Under the pieces are notes generated by a model that ran no database searches, was not told where the DNA came from, and saw only the letters and a list, made by a program, of their open reading frames with translations. A stretch of 36,419 bases of DNA from a virus. Shown in pieces: positions 5,766 through 20,653 of this stretch; the stretch's first letter is position 1, and the number at the start of each line of letters is the position of its first letter. Location of the stretch: the IMG/VR virus record IMGVR_UViG_3300003823_000001, positions 416 to 36,834 of that record; one strand, 5' to 3'. The translations under genes and the position numbers were made by a program.

Positions 5766-7518
5766 AAACACCAATCCTTTTGAGATAGTCAGATACATTG
5801 CGTCCAACTGTCAATTGTTCTGGGGTGAAATCGTCTTGTACACGCGACACGTTGCGGGTAATCTTTTGAGCAATCAATCTAGGCTGGACTTGTTCGGCAT
5901 AAGCAGCGCACGCTAAAGCAGCAGCAATCACCCGATCATCTTTGTTACGGCCAGACGCTTCAATTGAGCCGCCGTCTCGAATGGTGGTTTTCATTTCTTC
6001 AATGGTGTCCATATCCCAAATGTCCATCATGCCGCGTTCAAAGTAATCTTTCATGTAAGTAAGCATTCGCTCTTTGGTGGCTGCCGTAGTCATCCAGCCA
6101 ATAGAGTTAGACACCCCTCCAAGAGTATCGTTCCTACGCCAAATGTAATTTTGCATATTGCCGTACACATCTAAGAGGTCTTTTCCTAAAGCCGTACCCA
6201 TAGAAGCGGCTTGACGCTTAAGGTTACGCAATTCATTGATGACGGCTTGTCCTGGACCATTGATTTCCAAGTTCAGCGTGGAGTTCTTGTACGCACCCGC
6301 TAAGTGAGCAATAATCCAAGCGAACTGATAAGTATTGAGTTCGGAAGTCGCAAATGAAGCCACTTGTTCAAGTCCATCGGCATATACCCGAAATACTTGG
6401 ATACAAAAGCGATCAGCCCAATCGCTAGAACCGTAAGCTGGGTCAGCACCAATAACATAGTAAGCAGTATCAACAGGTTCTTCCCATATTTTAAGGGTGG
6501 CAAGTCTTTCTGTAGATTTAAGAACTTCTGTATCTTGGAAATTAACGCCAAAACTATAGCGATAGGAATCAAAAGAAATTTTCTTAAGTCTTTTAACGGC
6601 ATCTGTACACCTCGCATTAGAAAAGAACGACTGCCCCGTCATTACAAAGGCGTAGTCCTCGGTGGGCGGAAACTCCTGATACATCAGGCTATCATCTTTG
6701 ATACCTTCGTACAACTTCCACCGCCACCACGCTATCTGGCGAGAATTGATCTCTACCCCATAGAGTTTTTTAATGTCCCGTACCCATTCCTTTTCTTCAC
6801 CGGTGAGCTTGCCATCCCAATACACGTTGTAGGTCTGACCTTTAGGATCTAGGCTATACATCTCATTTCGCCACCAACCGCAGAAAATAGCTTTCTGGGT
6901 GCGGGCGCGTTTAGCGGTGGTGTACATATCGTGAAACATATTAAAACCGCGAGCTGTCGATTCAAAGGTATACAAGCGGTCTGGGTTGGTTTCCGCAAGG
7001 GAAGCTAACAAGGAAGCTAGTCCTTCTTCGTCTCCCCAAGAACTCGTCTCCGTTCCATGAAGGAAGGTGATACCTTTACCCCGACCGAGACTTCCTTTGG
7101 CTCTAAGCCCAGCGACCTGATAAAAGAGACGGCTTCGGTTCTTGAGGGCCAGCGCGTTTCGGTTGTGAGTAAGGATCGGGATTTTGTACTCTTTGGGTAA
7201 ACCATCCATATACATTGCGAGGGTGCTTCGGAACATATCTCGGTTTTCTTCTGTGTCCGTTGTAAGCGTTCCCTGTAGTCCTGGGTGTGTAAAGTGCCAG
7301 TAGAGATCGAGTGCGAGTGAAATAGTAGTGATTCCAAGTTGCCGTCCTTTTAAGATTACAAAAAAATGAACTCCCTCAGATAGCCCTTTTGCCATTTCAT
7401 TCATGACATAAGTTTGACTACCCATCAGACTGTCCAATTTGCGTAAACCTTGCTCCTTGGTTTCAATCTTTAACTGCTTACAAAAATGATAAAAGTGATT
7501 TAGATTAAAGTCACTCAT
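5752..7518 (-). CDS. terL: terminase large subunit (packaging ATPase and nuclease)
   Basis: A 588-residue motor that cuts concatemeric DNA and pumps it through the portal. The N-terminal ATPase has the Walker A-like KGRQLGIT at residues 57-64, followed by a sheet with LTTDTEENRD (85-94) and a probable Walker B region near ITFLHGTETSSWGDEEG (150-166). The C-terminal RNase H-like nuclease shows YYVIGADPAYGSSD (353-366) with D359, the LEINGPG segment with E418, and DDRVIAAALA with D527/D528, the three places where acidic metal ligands are expected. I chose the ATG at 7518 because it overlaps the upstream stop as ATGA; an in-frame ATG at 7530 is possible. Confidence 0.93.
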   Translation of the reverse strand: MSDFNLNHFYHFCKQLKIETKEQGLRKLDSLMGSQTYVMNEMAKGLSEGVHFFVILKGRQLGITTISLALDLYWHFTHPGLQGTLTTDTEENRDMFRSTLAMYMDGLPKEYKIPILTHNRNALALKNRSRLFYQVAGLRAKGSLGRGKGITFLHGTETSSWGDEEGLASLLASLAETNPDRLYTFESTARGFNMFHDMYTTAKRARTQKAIFCGWWRNEMYSLDPKGQTYNVYWDGKLTGEEKEWVRDIKKLYGVEINSRQIAWWRWKLYEGIKDDSLMYQEFPPTEDYAFVMTGQSFFSNARCTDAVKRLKKISFDSYRYSFGVNFQDTEVLKSTERLATLKIWEEPVDTAYYVIGADPAYGSSDWADRFCIQVFRVYADGLEQVASFATSELNTYQFAWIIAHLAGAYKNSTLNLEINGPGQAVINELRNLKRQAASMGTALGKDLLDVYGNMQNYIWRRNDTLGGVSNSIGWMTTAATKERMLTYMKDYFERGMMDIWDMDTIEEMKTTIRDGGSIEASGRNKDDRVIAAALACAAYAEQVQPRLIAQKITRNVSRVQDDFTPEQLTVGRNVSDYLKRIGVYGKC

Positions 7519-8234
7519 GTGATGATCCATGGAAGTTTGCCGTTAAAGCGTTTGAGCATTTCCAAATTACCTTGTTCAAAGAACTCTTTTTGTACGGAAT
7601 ACTCATTGCCACCCAATCTAAAGCAAAAAGTATGCCTACCTGTTCCTGTGAACTTAGGGAATATGTGCTTGGCGTTGTTATAGAAAGTACGATCTATACC
7701 CCACCCCTTGTTTGAGAATATGCTAGAGATTTGCTTTAAGCAATCGGTTTTCATACCCCACATACACCAATCTACAAAATGATGGCCATCGGCTACCCAA
7801 ACGGGGGATGCTTCGCCAAGGGCTTCGCAATTATCAGGAAAAAGAAAATTGCCTTCCTTATCAAATACCTTGCGAAAAGAGTACGCCCAGTCATTCCCTT
7901 CTTCGATCTTCTCCATAATGGTTTGTACATGGTTTTCCTCGTACCAATCGTCATCGTTGCAAAAGAATGTCACATCCTCATTGATAAGGTGAGGCGCGGC
8001 GGCCAGCCACCTTCTACCTTCTAAATCTTTGCCGCCAATCGGTTTAGGCCAATAGCAAAAGTGCAAATCTTTATCGTAGTAATCGTAATCATTGTGAAAA
8101 CGATCTGGGTTCATTCCGTCTACCAAAACATAGTGCTGGCAAGGATAGGTTTGGGCTTTTACAGAAGCAATACACTTAGCCAACTCCAAAAGGCGCTTGC
8201 CATTGGTAACTGTCACTACGGCTGCGGTTTTCAA
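7515..8234 (-). CDS. family 2-type glycosyltransferase (GT-A fold)
   Basis: A 239-residue enzyme expected to transfer a sugar from a nucleotide-sugar donor. It begins with the usual beta strand and loop (VVTVTNGKRLLELAKCIASV), followed by a VLVDG strand near residue 36-40. The metal/donor motif is CNDDDWYEENH with D94-D96. A C-terminal region rich in aromatic residues and His probably binds the acceptor. The start codon is TTG, overlapping the upstream stop as TTGA; no better in-frame ATG lies near it. It is set directly before the terminase, an unusual place, so the gene is probably cargo within the packaging operon. The target could be virion, DNA or host surface. Confidence 0.8.
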   Translation of the reverse strand: MKTAAVVTVTNGKRLLELAKCIASVKAQTYPCQHYVLVDGMNPDRFHNDYDYYDKDLHFCYWPKPIGGKDLEGRRWLAAAPHLINEDVTFFCNDDDWYEENHVQTIMEKIEEGNDWAYSFRKVFDKEGNFLFPDNCEALGEASPVWVADGHHFVDWCMWGMKTDCLKQISSIFSNKGWGIDRTFYNNAKHIFPKFTGTGRHTFCFRLGGNEYSVQKEFFEQGNLEMLKRFNGKLPWIIT

Positions 8235-10454: not shown

Positions 10455-11780
10455 ATGGCTTACAACATCATGGCAGGACGGCAGGACGGCGCGAGTCTGG
10501 CTCGCATACGCGACAACATGCGTCGCAACATTGAAGGCAACAATCGCAATTGGCGCGACCAGCGATCACCATCGCGCTTACTGCAAACGCAACAACGGCG
10601 GGACGCGCTCGCGGCAGTATTGCGCGAGGCTTTAAGAAGCGACGACGAATGCGACGCGATCTCAGGTCTTAACGAATACGACGACGTGCGCGGCTCTTAT
10701 AGCGATTGGGTAGATTGGCTGGACGAACACTTCAGCGGGCAATTTTTTAAATGTTACGACTGCGACGTGTTAGGGACGGACGACGATAGTTACAACGTGC
10801 GCGACGACTATTCCGTGTGCAGTGATTGTGTGAGCAATTATTTTTACAGTGAGCGTAATTCGTATTACGACGACAGCGAGGACGACGACGACGACCGCGA
10901 CCGCGAGGAAGAGCATATCGGCTCTTATCATTCGTCGCGGCATCATCTTGGCCATATCGCGAGCGCATACGACCAGCGGCGGCCGCGCGTGTTGTTGGGT
11001 CTCGAGTTGGAAATGGAGATCAATAGCGAACACGGACGCAACGAGAAGGCGGGCGAATTGCTCGAGGGATTGGGAGAGCGCGACGACGGGCAACAATACG
11101 CGTTGATCGAGGGCGACGGCTCACTTAATCGCGGCTTTGAATTGGTAACGGCGTACACGGGTCTGGACGTGCATGCCGCGCAACTTGCGTTTTTTAAGGG
11201 CGGATTTCGCGGCGCAAAATCGCACAATACGACGACATGCGGATTACACGTACACGTGTGTAAAGCCGACATGACTATGTTGCATGCCGCCAAAATGATT
11301 CTCTTTATCAACGACACAAACAACCAGTCTTTAGTAAAAGCAATCGCGAGGCGGGACGCGAGCGGGTACGCAAAATTCCAAGATAAAAGCGCGGATAAGA
11401 CGTGGCTGCGCGACGCGTTACGCTGCGGCGACACGAAGGCGCGGCAGCTGCGCAACATCAATCAAGATCGTTATGAGGCTCTGAATTTTCAGAATGACAA
11501 AACAATCGAATTTAGATTATTTAAGGGCACGCTCAAATATCAAACGATTATGGCTTGTTTAGAGTTTGCGTTTATTACGTGGTTTTTTGCGCGCGACACG
11601 TCGCAACAACAACTCAACACGGAGAATTTTTTGCAATACATTTGCTTAGAAAATAATCGCCGCGACACGCCGCATTTGCGCGCTTACTTGTTAGACAAGG
11701 GTTTTAAAGTGCCGTACACACACAAGGCACGACCAGCGGCATTCGGCGGCGTATCAACAACCACAATCGGAGAAATATAA
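10455..11780 (+). CDS. amidoligase-family enzyme (COOH-NH2 ligase fold) with Cys-rich N-terminus
   Basis: A 441-residue protein. The C-terminal half carries the motifs of the phage/bacterial amidoligase group related to glutamate-cysteine ligases: GLELEME (182-188), EGDGSL (219-224), GFEL (227-230), CGLHVHV (262-268), RYEALNF (339-345) and TIEFRLFKGT (350-359). These enzymes use ATP to join a carboxylate to an amine. The N-terminal half has a zinc-ribbon-like CYDC (100-103) and CSDC (122-125), then an acidic Asp/Glu/Arg stretch (about 139-154). The next gene is a glutamine amidotransferase, a known partner type. Codon use (GAC, GCG, CGC-rich) differs visibly from neighbours, suggesting transfer. 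The substrate is unknown. Confidence 0.85.
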   Translation: MAYNIMAGRQDGASLARIRDNMRRNIEGNNRNWRDQRSPSRLLQTQQRRDALAAVLREALRSDDECDAISGLNEYDDVRGSYSDWVDWLDEHFSGQFFKCYDCDVLGTDDDSYNVRDDYSVCSDCVSNYFYSERNSYYDDSEDDDDDRDREEEHIGSYHSSRHHLGHIASAYDQRRPRVLLGLELEMEINSEHGRNEKAGELLEGLGERDDGQQYALIEGDGSLNRGFELVTAYTGLDVHAAQLAFFKGGFRGAKSHNTTTCGLHVHVCKADMTMLHAAKMILFINDTNNQSLVKAIARRDASGYAKFQDKSADKTWLRDALRCGDTKARQLRNINQDRYEALNFQNDKTIEFRLFKGTLKYQTIMACLEFAFITWFFARDTSQQQLNTENFLQYICLENNRRDTPHLRAYLLDKGFKVPYTHKARPAAFGGVSTTTIGEI

Positions 11781-11782
11781 TT

Positions 11783-12802
11783 ATGTGTTTACTTATCACT
11801 CAATCGGAACAATCGCCAAAATTATCGAATGCGTGGCTCGAAGATTTTTACGATTACAACGGCGACGGCGTCGGCGTTATGTTTGTGGAAAATGGCTCTC
11901 TTATTATCGAGAAGTGTTTACCTAAAAACGCCGCTCAATTTGTCTCGTTTTACCGCGCGCATATCGAAGGCAAAAATTGCGCTTTTCACTTGCGTATGCG
12001 CACACACGGCGCAACTGATTTGGAAAATTGCCATCCCTACGAGGTCTTAAATAGAAAAGATCACGGCATTGATTTATGGCTTATGCACAACGGCATTTTG
12101 AGTACAGGCAACGCCGCCGACACTACAAAATCGGACACGTGGCATTACATACGCGACTATTTGCGACCTATGTTGTCGGCAAACCCTGATTTTGCTTTCC
12201 ATCCAGCATTTGCGGCAATTGTCGGCGATCACATCGGCGCAAGTAATAAATTTGTGTTGATGGATGACGCGGGACGTCTGGCAGTTGTAAACCAAAAAAG
12301 CGGCGTGTATTGGGCGGGTTTATGGTTATCCAATACATACGCGTGGACTGCGAGCAGTAACGCCGCCAAAACGCCGATTAAGGGCTATAAAAAGCAATTG
12401 AAACAAGCGACAGAGCGACCAGAGATCAGAGCGTATAAATACGCCAATTATGGTTATGGCAAAACGGCGATTGGGTACGTGGACGGCAACGAGTACGAGT
12501 ACGAGTACGAGGACGGCGGCGACAACGTGCGCGACCATTACGACGACGTCGCCATGCTCTTAGATGAGATGGAGAATGCCAATATGCAAAAGGCGGGCAG
12601 TATCTCCGTATCGGCGTGTATGGAATTTATTGAGCAATTCGGTCTGGAATCGTTTTACGAGGTCTCGTACATGTTGCTGGACGGCAATATCGGAGAAGAT
12701 TGGTTTGTCAAAATAATGACGGACGACGTTGCGGCTCGCGAGGCTTTTCCGTGGCTGGAACGCGCCGCTTACGCCAATACAGGGAGAGAATATGCCGAGT
12801 AA
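11783..12802 (+). CDS. class II glutamine amidotransferase domain protein
   Basis: A 339-residue protein of the Ntn-hydrolase type that releases ammonia from glutamine. It begins Met-Cys, so after Met removal Cys2 would be the N-terminal nucleophile. Further family motifs are YNGDGVGVMF (25-34), LRMRTHG (70-76) and MHNGIL (101-106). It starts three bases after the amidoligase stop. Amidoligase and amidotransferase genes are found together in phages and bacteria and are thought to make amide-modified peptides or metabolites. The C-terminal third is unassigned, with a Tyr/Glu/Asp-rich stretch encoded by three GAGTAC repeats. The shared GAC/GCG-rich composition with the amidoligase suggests both were acquired together. 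Confidence 0.88.
   Translation: MCLLITQSEQSPKLSNAWLEDFYDYNGDGVGVMFVENGSLIIEKCLPKNAAQFVSFYRAHIEGKNCAFHLRMRTHGATDLENCHPYEVLNRKDHGIDLWLMHNGILSTGNAADTTKSDTWHYIRDYLRPMLSANPDFAFHPAFAAIVGDHIGASNKFVLMDDAGRLAVVNQKSGVYWAGLWLSNTYAWTASSNAAKTPIKGYKKQLKQATERPEIRAYKYANYGYGKTAIGYVDGNEYEYEYEDGGDNVRDHYDDVAMLLDEMENANMQKAGSISVSACMEFIEQFGLESFYEVSYMLLDGNIGEDWFVKIMTDDVAAREAFPWLERAAYANTGREYAE
12491..12508 (+). repeat. (GAGTAC)3 tandem repeat inside the amidotransferase
   Basis: Three perfect copies of GAGTAC encode Glu-Tyr three times. The run lies in an acidic, aromatic linker of the C-terminal region and could vary in copy number by slippage without a frameshift. Confidence 0.8.
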
Positions 12803-16961: not shown

Positions 16962-17234
16962 ATGACAGTCGCACAAACATCAATAAAAGCTTACAAAGAA
17001 CATAGGGCCAGCGGTCTGGTTGGCAAACAGGCGCAAGCCATTCTTGATTTTATGACTCCTGGCGTGTCTTACTCCAGGCGCGAACTTGCACGAAAAATGG
17101 GTTTAGACCTAAGTTCGGTTTGCGGGCGCGTTAATGAGTTATTAGAAATAGGGATGTTGACCGAGGGCTCAAAACGTAGATGCACGATTACGCACAAGAC
17201 CATTGTTCCTGTTATTAAGGATTCATTATTTTGA
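16962..17234 (+). CDS. winged helix-turn-helix protein
   Basis: A 90-residue protein with a helix-turn-helix in the middle (about 36-64: YSRRELARKMGLDLSSVCGRVNELLEIG), followed by a wing (MLTEGSKRRCTI). It is of the MarR/ArsR-like winged type common in phages. GAGAGG provides the ribosome binding site. Its stop overlaps the TTG start of the next gene as TTGA, so it is translated with the TPP-enzyme genes and could regulate them. A structural DNA-binding role in recombination is also possible. Confidence 0.75.
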   Translation: MTVAQTSIKAYKEHRASGLVGKQAQAILDFMTPGVSYSRRELARKMGLDLSSVCGRVNELLEIGMLTEGSKRRCTITHKTIVPVIKDSLF

Positions 17235-17851
17235 AAAACGCTACTAAAAAAGAGCTTATTCAGTTTGAACAAGATGTGGCTTCCCATTGGGAAGAAGGTG
17301 ATTTGCCTTATTTGATTCACCTATCAGGTGGAAATGAAGATTTCTTGATTGATTTATTTAACGAGGACATCAAAAATGACGACTGGATATTTAGCACTCA
17401 CCGTAATCATCATCATGCTCTTTTATCTGGAGTTCCCAGACATGAGCTTCTTGCAAAAATTCTTGCTGGCAAGTCTATGTTCGTGTTTGATGCTGCTCGT
17501 AACTTTTATACTTCTAGTGTGTTGGGAGGCACTTGCGCTATAGCAGCGGGTGTTGCTTACGCGCTAAAAGAAGAAGGCAGCCCTAATTGGGTTTGGTGTT
17601 TTTTGGGCGATGGCGCGGAAGAACAAGGGCATTTTTACGAAGCGGTGATGTTTGTGCAAGGACACGATTTGCCTTGTATGTTTGTTATTGAAGATAACAA
17701 CCGCAGCGTTGACTCCACTATAGAAGAAAGGATGCCAACAAATTTTCGTATGGAATGGCCATCTTGTGTCATGAGAAACCGCTACACCGCTACTTATCCT
17801 CATGCTGGCAACGGCACTAAGAAACACATTATTTTCAAGGATATTAAATGA
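17231..17851 (+). CDS. TPP-dependent dehydrogenase E1 alpha-like subunit
   Basis: A 206-residue protein matching the core of E1 alpha subunits of 2-oxo-acid dehydrogenases. It has an STHRNHHHALLSGVP loop, GKSMFVFDAARNFYTSSVLGG, and the TPP/magnesium motif GDGAEEQGHFYEA ending in IEDNN, the classic GDG...NN. It is much shorter than the usual ~330-360 residues, stopping shortly after the TPP motif, so the later helical region is missing. It would bind cofactor only with the beta-type protein encoded next. The start is TTG in a TTGA overlap. Short split TPP enzymes occur in sugar or secondary-metabolite gene sets. Substrate unknown. Confidence 0.85.
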   Translation: MKNATKKELIQFEQDVASHWEEGDLPYLIHLSGGNEDFLIDLFNEDIKNDDWIFSTHRNHHHALLSGVPRHELLAKILAGKSMFVFDAARNFYTSSVLGGTCAIAAGVAYALKEEGSPNWVWCFLGDGAEEQGHFYEAVMFVQGHDLPCMFVIEDNNRSVDSTIEERMPTNFRMEWPSCVMRNRYTATYPHAGNGTKKHIIFKDIK

Positions 17852-18372
17852 GCTACAAAGAAGCGTTAATTCGGCAAAACACGCTTTTAGGGCAAAACAC
17901 TAAATCGCGGTTTATTGGCTATGGTTTGAAAAAAGGTCGCGCTATGGGAACTTTAAAAGATGTATCCGATGAGCAAATCATCGAAATGCCTGTAGCAGAG
18001 AATTTAATGATAGGTTGCGCTATTGGCTTGTCTTTAAAAGGTTTGCTTCCCATTGTGTTTATAGAGCGAATGGATTTTGTTTTAAACGGATTGGACGCGA
18101 TGGTGAACCATTTGGACAAAGCCAAAGAAATCTCAGATGGTGAGTTCGCGCCCGCGGCCATTATTCGCTGTGTAGTAGGAAATACGACTAAACCGCTTTA
18201 TACGGGAGTTACCCATACGCAAGATTTTTCAGAAGCGTTGATGAATATGGTCAGTTTTCCTGTTTTACAGATGAAAAGTGATGAAGAAGTGAATGCTTTT
18301 TACCAAATTGCCTTCTTAAACTGGGTAAAAGGGCGGTCTACTTTGTTAATTGAATACAAGGATTTAGTATGA
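17848..18372 (+). CDS. TPP-dependent enzyme beta-like subunit (pyrimidine domain only)
   Basis: A 174-residue protein equal to the pyrimidine-binding domain of E1 beta or transketolase. It includes RFIGYGLKKG, the region IIEMPVAENLMIGCAIGLSLKG with the glutamate that activates TPP, and ERMDFVLNGLDAMVNHLDK. Normal E1 beta proteins (~320 residues) have an extra C-terminal domain that is absent. With the alpha-like partner it should form a minimal TPP enzyme that forms or breaks carbon-carbon bonds next to a carbonyl. The two genes overlap as ATGA and are coupled to the radical SAM gene likewise. No lipoyl E2 or E3 partner is seen, so it is probably not a true dehydrogenase. Confidence 0.82.
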   Translation: MSYKEALIRQNTLLGQNTKSRFIGYGLKKGRAMGTLKDVSDEQIIEMPVAENLMIGCAIGLSLKGLLPIVFIERMDFVLNGLDAMVNHLDKAKEISDGEFAPAAIIRCVVGNTTKPLYTGVTHTQDFSEALMNMVSFPVLQMKSDEEVNAFYQIAFLNWVKGRSTLLIEYKDLV

Positions 18373-19463
18373 AAAGTAACAAATATAGCGATTTTAAGAT
18401 ATTTCATTACCCAGAAAAGCTAAATTCTTTTGTGGCGGGGGAGGTTAAAGCACCGCTATATGTTCGCGTCAAGCCAATCAACCTTTGTAATCACGGTTGT
18501 TTCTTTTGTGTGTATAGCACGGGATTTCGAGTAAAAGACGGCGGTGATGAAGAGCACATTCAAAGCGGTATGCATCAGGACATGAAAGAAGATGACATCA
18601 TTCCTACGCCAAAGATGTTTCAAATCTTAGAAGATTTTTGGAAGATGGGTGTTAAAGCAGTAACTTACTCTGGTGGTGGTGAGCCATTGATGCACCCAGA
18701 CATTGTGGAGATCATGCAGGCCACGCTTGATTACGGAATAGGTCTATCCATTATCACCAATGGTCAAAATTTAGCCAAGGAACGTGCCTCTGTGTTGCGA
18801 TCAGCTAAATGGGTAAGGGTCAGCATGGATTACACCAACGGCGAGGAAATGAAGCGTTTTAGGAATGTTTCTGAAAAGAGCTTTGATAGCGTAATTCGAA
18901 ATATGGAGCAGTTTGCCAAGATCAAGAATGCAGATTGTGATTTAGCGGTTAATTATATTGTGCATCGCAACAATTACAAAAATCTTGGGGGACTAACCCA
19001 GTTATTAAAAGATAGCGGTGTTGAAAATGTGCGGTTCAGTCCAATGTATGTACCAGATTTCTACGAATACCATAAACCGATAGCAGAGGAAGTCAATGAA
19101 CAACTCAAAAACATTCAATCAATATGTGATGATCGCTTTACTGTTAACAGCACTTATAACATCACTCCTGGGAGTAGCCATTCTCATACTAGAAGCTATA
19201 ACAAGTGCTTCATTATGCAAACCGTACCTGTAGTGGGCGCGGATTTAAAGGTATACGCTTGCCATAACAAGGCTTATGACAATACGGGCTGCATAGGATC
19301 AATCAAGGATCAATCCTTTAAAGAGCTATGGTTCTCCGATGCTACCAAGGAATACATGGGTAGCTTTAACGCTAAAACAACTTGTATGCACGAATGCTCT
19401 AACGACCGCAAAAACATACTGATTAACGAAGTAGTAAATGCTAGTACCGACAACTTTATTTAA
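18369..19463 (+). CDS. radical SAM enzyme with SPASM-like C-terminal cysteines
   Basis: A 364-residue protein. CNHGCFFC (C40, C44, C47) is the radical SAM Cx3Cx2C motif for a 4Fe-4S cluster; GGGEPLMHPDI shortly after is the SAM-binding GGE-type motif. The C-terminal part has cysteines at 280, 298, 308, 339 and 343 (KCFIM, VYACHNK, TGCIGSI, TTCMHEC), the spacing expected of a SPASM or twitch auxiliary cluster domain. Such enzymes modify peptides, sugars or other small molecules by radical chemistry. It overlaps the TPP beta gene as ATGA. With a glycosyltransferase next, synthesis and attachment of a modified sugar or side chain is plausible. Target unknown. Confidence 0.9.
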   Translation: MKSNKYSDFKIFHYPEKLNSFVAGEVKAPLYVRVKPINLCNHGCFFCVYSTGFRVKDGGDEEHIQSGMHQDMKEDDIIPTPKMFQILEDFWKMGVKAVTYSGGGEPLMHPDIVEIMQATLDYGIGLSIITNGQNLAKERASVLRSAKWVRVSMDYTNGEEMKRFRNVSEKSFDSVIRNMEQFAKIKNADCDLAVNYIVHRNNYKNLGGLTQLLKDSGVENVRFSPMYVPDFYEYHKPIAEEVNEQLKNIQSICDDRFTVNSTYNITPGSSHSHTRSYNKCFIMQTVPVVGADLKVYACHNKAYDNTGCIGSIKDQSFKELWFSDATKEYMGSFNAKTTCMHECSNDRKNILINEVVNASTDNFI

Positions 19464-19471
19464 GGAAAATC

Positions 19472-20251
19472 ATGGCAACTAAAAAGAAAGCAGCACCTAA
19501 AGCACCCGTACAACCAATTATTTTTATTGCTACCCCTATGTATGGCGGTATGTGTGCTGGCTTTTACACTCAGGCCATATTGCAGTCTATTAGCGTATTG
19601 AGCCAGGCTGGAATTCAAACTCAGTTTAGTTTTATGTTTAACGAAAGCCTTATTACTAGGGCTAGAAACGCTTTAGCGCATACTTTCTTAAAGTCTAACT
19701 CTACTCATCTGATGTTTATTGATGCCGACATCAAATTCAGACCAGAGGACATTGTGAGAATGATTCAAGCTGATAAAGACATTATTTGCGGTATCTATCC
19801 TAAAAAAGAGATTAACTGGAATAGCACCAAGCAAGCAATGGATGCGGGTGTGCCAAATGACCAGTTAAAAAGCCATACAGGTAGCTTTGTAGTCAATTTA
19901 GTGGACTATGCAGGTGAGGTCACTGTTCCCATAGATCAACCAGTAGAGATCTTTAATGGCGGTACTGGATTTATGCTGATTAAACGCAAGGTGTTTGAGA
20001 AGCTCAAGAAAAAAGTACCTTCTTACACCAATGATGTAGGAGATCTCTCAGGTCAATTAAATCAAGCAGAGCAAATTCACGAATATTTTGCCACTTCAAT
20101 TGAGCCTGGCACTAATCGCTTGCTTTCAGAGGATTATCACTTTTGCCGTATTTGGAGATTAGCGGGTGGAAAAGTGTATGCAGCGCCTTGGGCTAATTTA
20201 GGACATTTAGGAAGCTATTTGTTTGAAGGTCAGCTTACTCCAGCACCTTGA
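19472..20251 (+). CDS. glycosyltransferase-like protein (GT-A, DxD)
   Basis: A 259-residue protein starting with a Lys/Ala/Pro-rich tail, then IIFIATPMYGG (16-26), a nucleotide-sugar-binding-type start. Residues 79-86 read HLMFIDAD, where D84-A85-D86 is the metal-binding DxD. Later parts have IFNGGTGFMLIKR and LSEDYHFCRIW, typical of this type of phage glycosyltransferase, where the ED pair may be the catalytic base region. It starts nine bases after the radical SAM stop with a ribosome binding site (AAGGAAA). It may transfer a product of the upstream genes. Its 3' end overlaps the convergent membrane protein gene by 17 bases. Confidence 0.85.
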   Translation: MATKKKAAPKAPVQPIIFIATPMYGGMCAGFYTQAILQSISVLSQAGIQTQFSFMFNESLITRARNALAHTFLKSNSTHLMFIDADIKFRPEDIVRMIQADKDIICGIYPKKEINWNSTKQAMDAGVPNDQLKSHTGSFVVNLVDYAGEVTVPIDQPVEIFNGGTGFMLIKRKVFEKLKKKVPSYTNDVGDLSGQLNQAEQIHEYFATSIEPGTNRLLSEDYHFCRIWRLAGGKVYAAPWANLGHLGSYLFEGQLTPAP

Positions 20252-20444
20252 TTTTTAACCAGATGCGTTCATGTAACCAATATAGGGCTATTTTGGTAAA
20301 TAGCTCTATAAAGGCTATGCTAAACGCTAGGTTTACTTGACCTGTGACTATCCAAGACAACACAAAGGTATCAAGACTGCCTGTAACGCGCCAAGTGACC
20401 GCCTTTAATAGAGACTTGTAGTGTGAATCTATCTGCAACCCCAC
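20235..20444 (-). CDS. DUF2061-like small membrane protein
   Basis: A 69-residue protein with two membrane segments (about 21-36 and 38-56) and the family pattern KAVTWRVTGSLDTFVLSWIV, then AFSIAFIELFTKIALYWLHE and RIWLK. This matches DUF2061, a short bacterial and phage membrane family of unknown function. It uses GTG as start codon and overlaps the end of the upstream gene by 16 bases. It is the last gene of the leftward structural operon, next to holin-like and secreted genes, so a lysis or envelope role is possible. No terminator is visible at this convergent end. Confidence 0.85.
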   Translation of the reverse strand: MGLQIDSHYKSLLKAVTWRVTGSLDTFVLSWIVTGQVNLAFSIAFIELFTKIALYWLHERIWLKIKVLE

Positions 20445-20653
20445 CTTCTTCTAGCAGCTTTACCACGCTCACCTTTCCATTTTCTTGACCTAGCACAAAA
20501 TGATTTATGCCGAGGCCCTGATTTCGTTGGTGCTTTTAATTTGCTTCCTGTTGCTCGGTTGTATTTTTTTCTGCCTTTTTTTGTTAATCCACCGCCTTGG
20601 GATACTGAAAGCTTTTCTCCACGACCTACTGAAAGGTTGGTACTTTTAGGCAT
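20429..20653 (-). CDS. small basic phage protein, DUF6321-like
   Basis: A 74-residue very basic protein with the pattern GGLTKKGRKKYNRATGSKLK followed by HKSFCARSRKWKG. This pattern is common in short phage proteins catalogued, as I recall, as DUF6321. It is rich in Lys/Arg/Gly with one Cys in SFCARS. Such proteins are widespread in phages; their role is unknown, possibly nucleic-acid binding in the virion. It overlaps the DUF2061-like gene. The family name is from memory. Confidence 0.75.
   Translation of the reverse strand: MPKSTNLSVGRGEKLSVSQGGGLTKKGRKKYNRATGSKLKAPTKSGPRHKSFCARSRKWKGERGKAARRRWGCR

Follow-up and report, generated by a model that had tools for sequence, protein, structure and literature searches.

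Proteins resembling the two E1 subunits of pyruvate dehydrogenase (PDH) occur as pairs in the biosynthesis of avilamycin and paulomycin, where AviB1/AviB2, Pau11/Pau12 and Plm8/Plm9 are PDH E1-like pairs proposed to place two carbons onto a ketosugar (PMC4425429, PMC4802897). BtrN of butirosin biosynthesis is a radical S-adenosylmethionine (rSAM) dehydrogenase of the twitch type, which has one four-Cys auxiliary cluster and oxidizes an alcohol (PMC9012708). Here we describe a locus of a lake phage that combines genes related to both. It lies in a 36,419-nucleotide stretch of DNA (positions 416 to 36,834 of IMGVR_UViG_3300003823_000001; 'the window'), which is nearly all of a 36.8-kb IMG/VR virus record, and encodes a minimal E1-type thiamine diphosphate (TPP) pair, TPPa and TPPb, followed by an rSAM and a glycosyltransferase (GT). 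We tentatively favour the view that TPPa-TPPb-rSAM is a phage-borne sugar-tailoring module feeding the adjacent GT, with an inferred chemistry of dehydrogenation, C2 addition and transfer. Five plus-strand open reading frames (ORFs), joined by 4-base overlaps with an 8-base gap before the last gene, are found exactly where a preliminary description of this DNA had placed them:

16962-17234, plus strand: small winged helix-turn-helix-like protein (wHTH); weak, sub-threshold Pfam HTH matches; phrog_1123, 9e-16
17231-17851, plus strand: TPPa, minimal E1-alpha-like diphosphate-binding subunit, 206 aa, TTG start; E1_dh, 6e-20; N-terminal half of phrog_34187, 6e-71
17848-18372, plus strand: TPPb, E1-beta-like pyrimidine-binding subunit, 174 aa; Transket_pyr, 5e-5; C-terminal half of phrog_34187, 8e-48
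18369-19463, plus strand: rSAM, predicted twitch-type radical SAM enzyme, 364 aa; Radical_SAM, 8e-18; SPASM, 1e-6
19472-20251, plus strand: GT-A-like glycosyltransferase with a DAD motif, 259 aa; Anp1, 2e-6; phrog_1574, 9e-48

TPPa and TPPb are predicted to share the fold of PDH E1 alpha and beta and the catalytic residues of both subunits. Human E1 positions, which we take to be H63, R90, D167 and N196 in the alpha subunit and E59 and H128 in the beta subunit, were read onto the alignments. H30, R58, GDG 126-128 and N156 of TPPa align with the four alpha positions, whose equivalents are nearly invariant in 66 TPPa sequences, and the catalytic Glu and His of the beta subunit are found in 65/65 TPPb sequences. 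The best profile and PDB matches of TPPa, TPPb and their fused relatives are PDH E1 subunits, not transketolase (96.6 versus 33.8 bits for the profiles); for TPPb the best PDB match is the PDH E1 beta-type structure 1ik6 (1e-9). Judged by its residues, the pair is a predicted minimal but complete PDH-E1-type active site. It differs from PDH E1 in lacking the C-terminal transketolase (transketolase_C) domain of the beta subunit (TPPb has a Transket_pyr match only, at 23.4 bits under the 27-bit cut-off) and in scoring far under NCBIfam equivalog cut-offs (96.6 bits for TIGR03182 against 393.85). No E2, E3 or lipoyl partner is present among the annotated neighbours in the window (most, not all, of whose genes were searched) or in the inspected relatives, in agreement with the description of the pair as minimal and without E2/E3.

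The AviB1/AviB2-type pairs are likewise stand-alone E1 alpha/beta proteins encoded near GT genes, with no E2/E3 described, and by analogy with them TPPa/TPPb may transfer a C2 unit. Pau11 (325 aa) and Pau12 (345 aa), however, are full-length and belong to actinomycete antibiotic clusters, whereas the shorter TPPa and TPPb are viral and accompanied by an rSAM or a zinc-dependent alcohol dehydrogenase (Zn-ADH). The fused 'transketolase central region' protein of cyanophages S-SM2 and P-TIM68 (PHROG 34187) has about 50% identity to TPPa and its halves match both window subunits. It differs in being one chain of about 400 aa without an rSAM, located beside a Zn-ADH in large sugar clusters of lipopolysaccharide (LPS) type that also encode kinase, nucleotidyltransferase and isomerase; for S-SM2, the LPS cluster has been noted before (PMC3037559).

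The CX3CX2C motif of the rSAM comprises C40, C44 and C47 and its auxiliary set C280, C298, C339 and C343; these residues are conserved at 97.7-100% and no further C-terminal Cys is. The five C-terminal cysteines reported initially (the auxiliary set and C308) do exist, but only 29% of the viral homologues have C308, which leaves four conserved residues and one cluster. A SPASM enzyme with two auxiliary clusters was accordingly rejected, although PF13186 scores 29.4 bits, and the rSAM is predicted to be of the twitch type with a single four-Cys auxiliary cluster. The nearest PDB folds (Foldseek) to the rSAM model (pLDDT 87) are DesII and then BlsE. These two enzymes, both acting on sugars, are also its best PDB matches by sequence, at 16-19% identity and with a chemistry of deamination or oxidation (DesII) and decarboxylation (BlsE). 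BtrN resembles the window rSAM in its radical SAM core, its one four-Cys auxiliary cluster, a profile match to its auxiliary-cluster region (1e-9) and the two-electron oxidation proposed here, but DesII and BlsE are nearer in overall fold. In three loci (L262; L088, 7547-10932; L091, 8696-10877) a single TPP pair is accompanied by two paralogous rSAMs of this family, which possibly act at two positions. In the Manatee Spring podovirus (L005, 9989-14652) an rSAM homologue without TPP genes immediately follows the major capsid gene, and GT, PhyH, methyltransferase, NodB-like and GT genes come after it.

The partner of the TPP genes was compared across viral loci, reduced to 60 clusters at 90% TPPa identity and searched within 6 kb. 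The collection scans were limited to 80 loci per motif, which makes every count a minimum that leans towards the query; neighbours were counted with a simple ORF caller and checked by six-frame search, which exposed an apparent locus without either partner (L030) as an ORF-calling artefact. An rSAM alone is present in 24 clusters, a Zn-ADH alone in 35, both in one (L190) and neither in none, and a potential supply of keto-sugar is thus encoded near TPP in all 60. The 56 clusters reached by TPP-only scans divide in the same manner (20 rSAM, 35 ADH, one both, none neither). Exclusivity has a Fisher p of 7e-16 over the 60 clusters, but relatedness inflates p-values and the TPPa tree is therefore needed beside them; on it partner type changes 5 times against 20.8 in shuffles, and at least two changes are forced by well-supported branches. 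The exchange can be seen in a single slot, where GT2-GT9like-TPPb-rSAM-TPPa (L158) corresponds to GT2-GT9like-TPPb-ADH-TPPa (L282, and L164 with an inserted gene); the flanking GTs are 33-39% identical between L158 and L282 or L261. Fusion of the TPP chain was rejected as the cause of ADH pairing, since split TPP genes with ADH (L155, L164, L261, L265 and L282) and fused TPP with rSAM (L204) both exist. The rSAM and Zn-ADH swap near-exclusively and slot for slot, and a shared alcohol oxidation is therefore the simplest common step. A parallel is offered by the 2-deoxystreptamine pathways, some of which carry out the BtrN step with an NAD-dependent ADH.

In related viral contigs the order SSB-RusA-(variable genes)-TPPa-(0 to 2 small genes)-TPPb-rSAM-GT is found in dozens, often followed by DUF2061 and DUF6321 genes on the opposite strand. 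Wherever dN/dS (the ratio of non-synonymous to synonymous substitution rates) could be computed against relatives, it is 0.03-0.16 for TPPa, TPPb, rSAM and GT, so the four proteins are under purifying selection. Low dN/dS and the recurrence of the order together argue that the gene set is not a chance arrangement, and the TPPa-TPPb-rSAM-GT portion of the originally proposed cassette holds. The wHTH gene, which had been counted with it, does not: it varies among relatives, being present in only 17 of them, and on its sub-threshold matches and distribution it is a neighbour, translationally coupled to TPPa in this genome, outside the conserved cassette. Small genes with repeated 'PLYTHPVK' motifs, a recurrent small family, lie between TPPa and TPPb or between RusA and GT (for example in L014 and L365). 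In other phages, among them a 735-kb metagenomic phage, the order is TPPb-rSAM-TPPa. Gene order is therefore uninformative on reaction order, and the suggestion that it reads as build, modify and attach was abandoned.

Relatives were also sought via RecT or RecE, counting those with at least 6 kb downstream. This yielded 15 loci with all four genes and 9 (at least 6 distinct contigs) with the GT alone, the sequence from RusA to GT being intact, so an obligate partnership of GT and TPP was rejected. In three of the GT-alone loci the GT is followed by a protein of 240-243 aa, a putative FkbM-like methyltransferase (named by eye). Three states thus exist among relatives: GT alone, GT with the putative methyltransferase, and TPP-TPP-rSAM with GT. 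Because relatives keep the GT without TPP or rSAM, we regard the GT as the core and TPPa-TPPb-rSAM as an accessory tailoring module. The DAD motif confirms the DxD element noted in the GT, but assignment to a family is weak (Anp1 27.9 bits, cut-off 28.8; Glycos_transf_2 17.8 bits, cut-off 23.3), and comparison of the GT sequence with PDB sequences gave no useful match.

TPPa relatives are encoded by at least 569 viral contigs. Among the matches listed, identity is above 40% in seven cellular contigs, some of which may themselves be viral, and a TPPb match at E <= 1e-20 occurs in one of 395 sampled genomes from the phylum of a Desulfobacterales metagenome-assembled genome (MAG). The family is mainly viral, and capture of a common host operon was rejected on these counts. 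The Desulfobacterales MAG (L088) has the order GT2-rSAM-rSAM-TPPa-TPPb-rSAM a short distance upstream of genes for LptA, an LptB-like ABC ATPase and RpoN. A Nanoarchaeota MAG contig carries genes for an HldE-like protein, an rSAM, a flavin oxidoreductase with a short-chain dehydrogenase/reductase (SDR), TPPa, TPPb and two further rSAMs, and L091 carries an HldE homologue. In the window group the module lies by recombination genes, while in other phages its surroundings are capsid and tail genes together with additional GTs; in L158 and L261 the block of GT, TPP and partner genes follows the major head protein gene. The sugar-enzyme folds nearest the rSAM, the GT and heptose-type neighbours and the AviB1/AviB2 precedent fit a role in carbohydrate chemistry, as had been suggested. 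Clusters related to the cassette do occur in surface-polysaccharide loci, where the same gene order was to be looked for (the S-SM2 LPS cluster and the MAG locus with LptA, LptB-like and RpoN genes), but none has a defined chemistry. The open-access literature searched contained no phage paper describing this gene set, in line with the initial view that no phage pathway with exactly this set had been described.

The sequence of events that we propose is inferred in its substrates, in the order of its reactions, in the role of the dehydrogenase and in the location of the glycan. Acting as a dehydrogenase, the twitch rSAM would oxidize a secondary alcohol of an activated sugar or glycan to give a keto-sugar, much as BtrN acts on an aminocyclitol, and an NAD(P)-type Zn-ADH would perform the same oxidation in other phages. 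The TPPa/TPPb complex would bind TPP at the subunit interface and decarboxylate a 2-oxoacid, probably pyruvate; the two-carbon carbanion would then be added to the keto carbon, and the resulting sugar would be branched or C2-extended, in line with the proposals for AviB1/AviB2 and Pau11/Pau12. The GT would transfer this product, or might earlier have transferred the acceptor sugar, to a glycan of the host surface or the virion. That the mostly viral minimal E1-type TPP enzymes in general make branched or C2-extended sugars, with the keto-sugar coming from an interchangeable rSAM or Zn-ADH, is a broader proposal that we put forward with more reserve.

Several observations weigh against this scheme. 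Among the window genes searched no nucleotide-sugar dehydratase, epimerase or nucleotidyltransferase was recognised, so host sugars must be used. L190 holds both partners within 6 kb, and the enzymes closest to the ADH are class III or NDMA-type ADHs rather than any known sugar dehydrogenase. The structural model of the fused TPP protein is moderate (pLDDT 73, and below 50 at 153-215, the alpha loop and linker) and was left out of reasoning on site geometry. ADH-type clusters often contain PfkB/HldE-like kinases, nucleotidyltransferases and phosphoheptose isomerases, and GT9-like (heptosyltransferase-type) genes adjoin TPP in 17/60 viral loci. This company would equally suit a minimal transketolase, in which ketol transfer lengthens a sugar phosphate (to a heptulose or octulose, for example) for HldE-like activation and the rSAM or ADH adjusts redox state or stereochemistry. 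We judge this unlikely: the profile and PDB matches described above favour PDH E1, the equivalents of the E1-specific H63 and R90 are invariant, and no kinase or heptose gene was recognised in the window-type phages. Also counting against a dehydrogenase is C190 of the rSAM, conserved in 96.5% of viral members, which could be the hydrogen donor of a sugar epimerase of the NeoN/HygY type. The ADH, with an SDR that is indeed present in some ADH loci, would then reach the same epimer by oxidation and reduction, and the TPP pair would make a separate acyl or ketol substituent. HygY is, according to the title of a work cited in PMC10991966, a twitch epimerase in which a dehydrogenase activity is latent. 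In about two thirds of the ADH loci, however, no SDR was detected, and the cellular homologues do not conserve C190, which is also absent from L012 although that locus retains the complete cassette; an epimerase thus seems rather improbable to us.

Two further explanations were weighed. Since the family-level annotation of the TPP pair is PDH E1 and the GT also occurs without TPP and rSAM, the unit could be an auxiliary metabolic one that takes over pyruvate or acetoin conversion in central metabolism, and the GT would then lie next to it without being related to it. This is very improbable, since none of the neighbourhoods inspected encodes E2/E3 or a lipoyl partner and TPP genes recur next to GTs in bacteria as well as in unrelated phages. 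The position of the cassette beside RecT-, SSB- and RusA-like recombination genes might instead suggest that it hypermodifies bases of the phage DNA and that the GT has DNA as its acceptor; some pathways of DNA hypermodification do include radical SAM enzymes and GTs. But no match resembling a base hydroxymethylase or thymidylate synthase was found among the window genes searched, and the location of the module among capsid and tail genes in other phages also speaks against it, so that we give this explanation hardly any weight.

Elsewhere the window encodes a major head protein, portal, terminase and tail proteins, as well as RecE-, RecT- and RusA-like proteins. At 10455-12802 on the plus strand an Amidoligase_2 protein (1.4e-8) is followed by a GATase_4-like protein (6.6e-5, just under the cut-off), a pair that appears amidoligase/glutamine-amidotransferase-like by sequence. 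A second glycosyltransferase (GT2, 2.5e-8) at 7515-8234 on the minus strand overlaps the end of the gene for the terminase large subunit. The minus-strand region 20235-20653, convergent with the GT and kept in many relatives, encodes a very basic DUF6321 protein and the following:

20235-20444, minus strand: DUF2061 membrane protein, convergent with the GT; PF09834, 1.7e-20; kept in many relatives

A small number of antibiotic pathways are known in which E1-like TPP enzymes make branched sugars. Should phages share this chemistry, they would form a large and so far unexploited reservoir of enzymes for rare sugars, and a TPP family with hundreds of viral members would gain a function. Because rSAM and ADH swap, an ordinary dehydrogenase assay could directly probe what an unassigned family of radical SAM enzymes does, and the outcome would bear on the ways in which phages change the surfaces of their hosts or their own coats.

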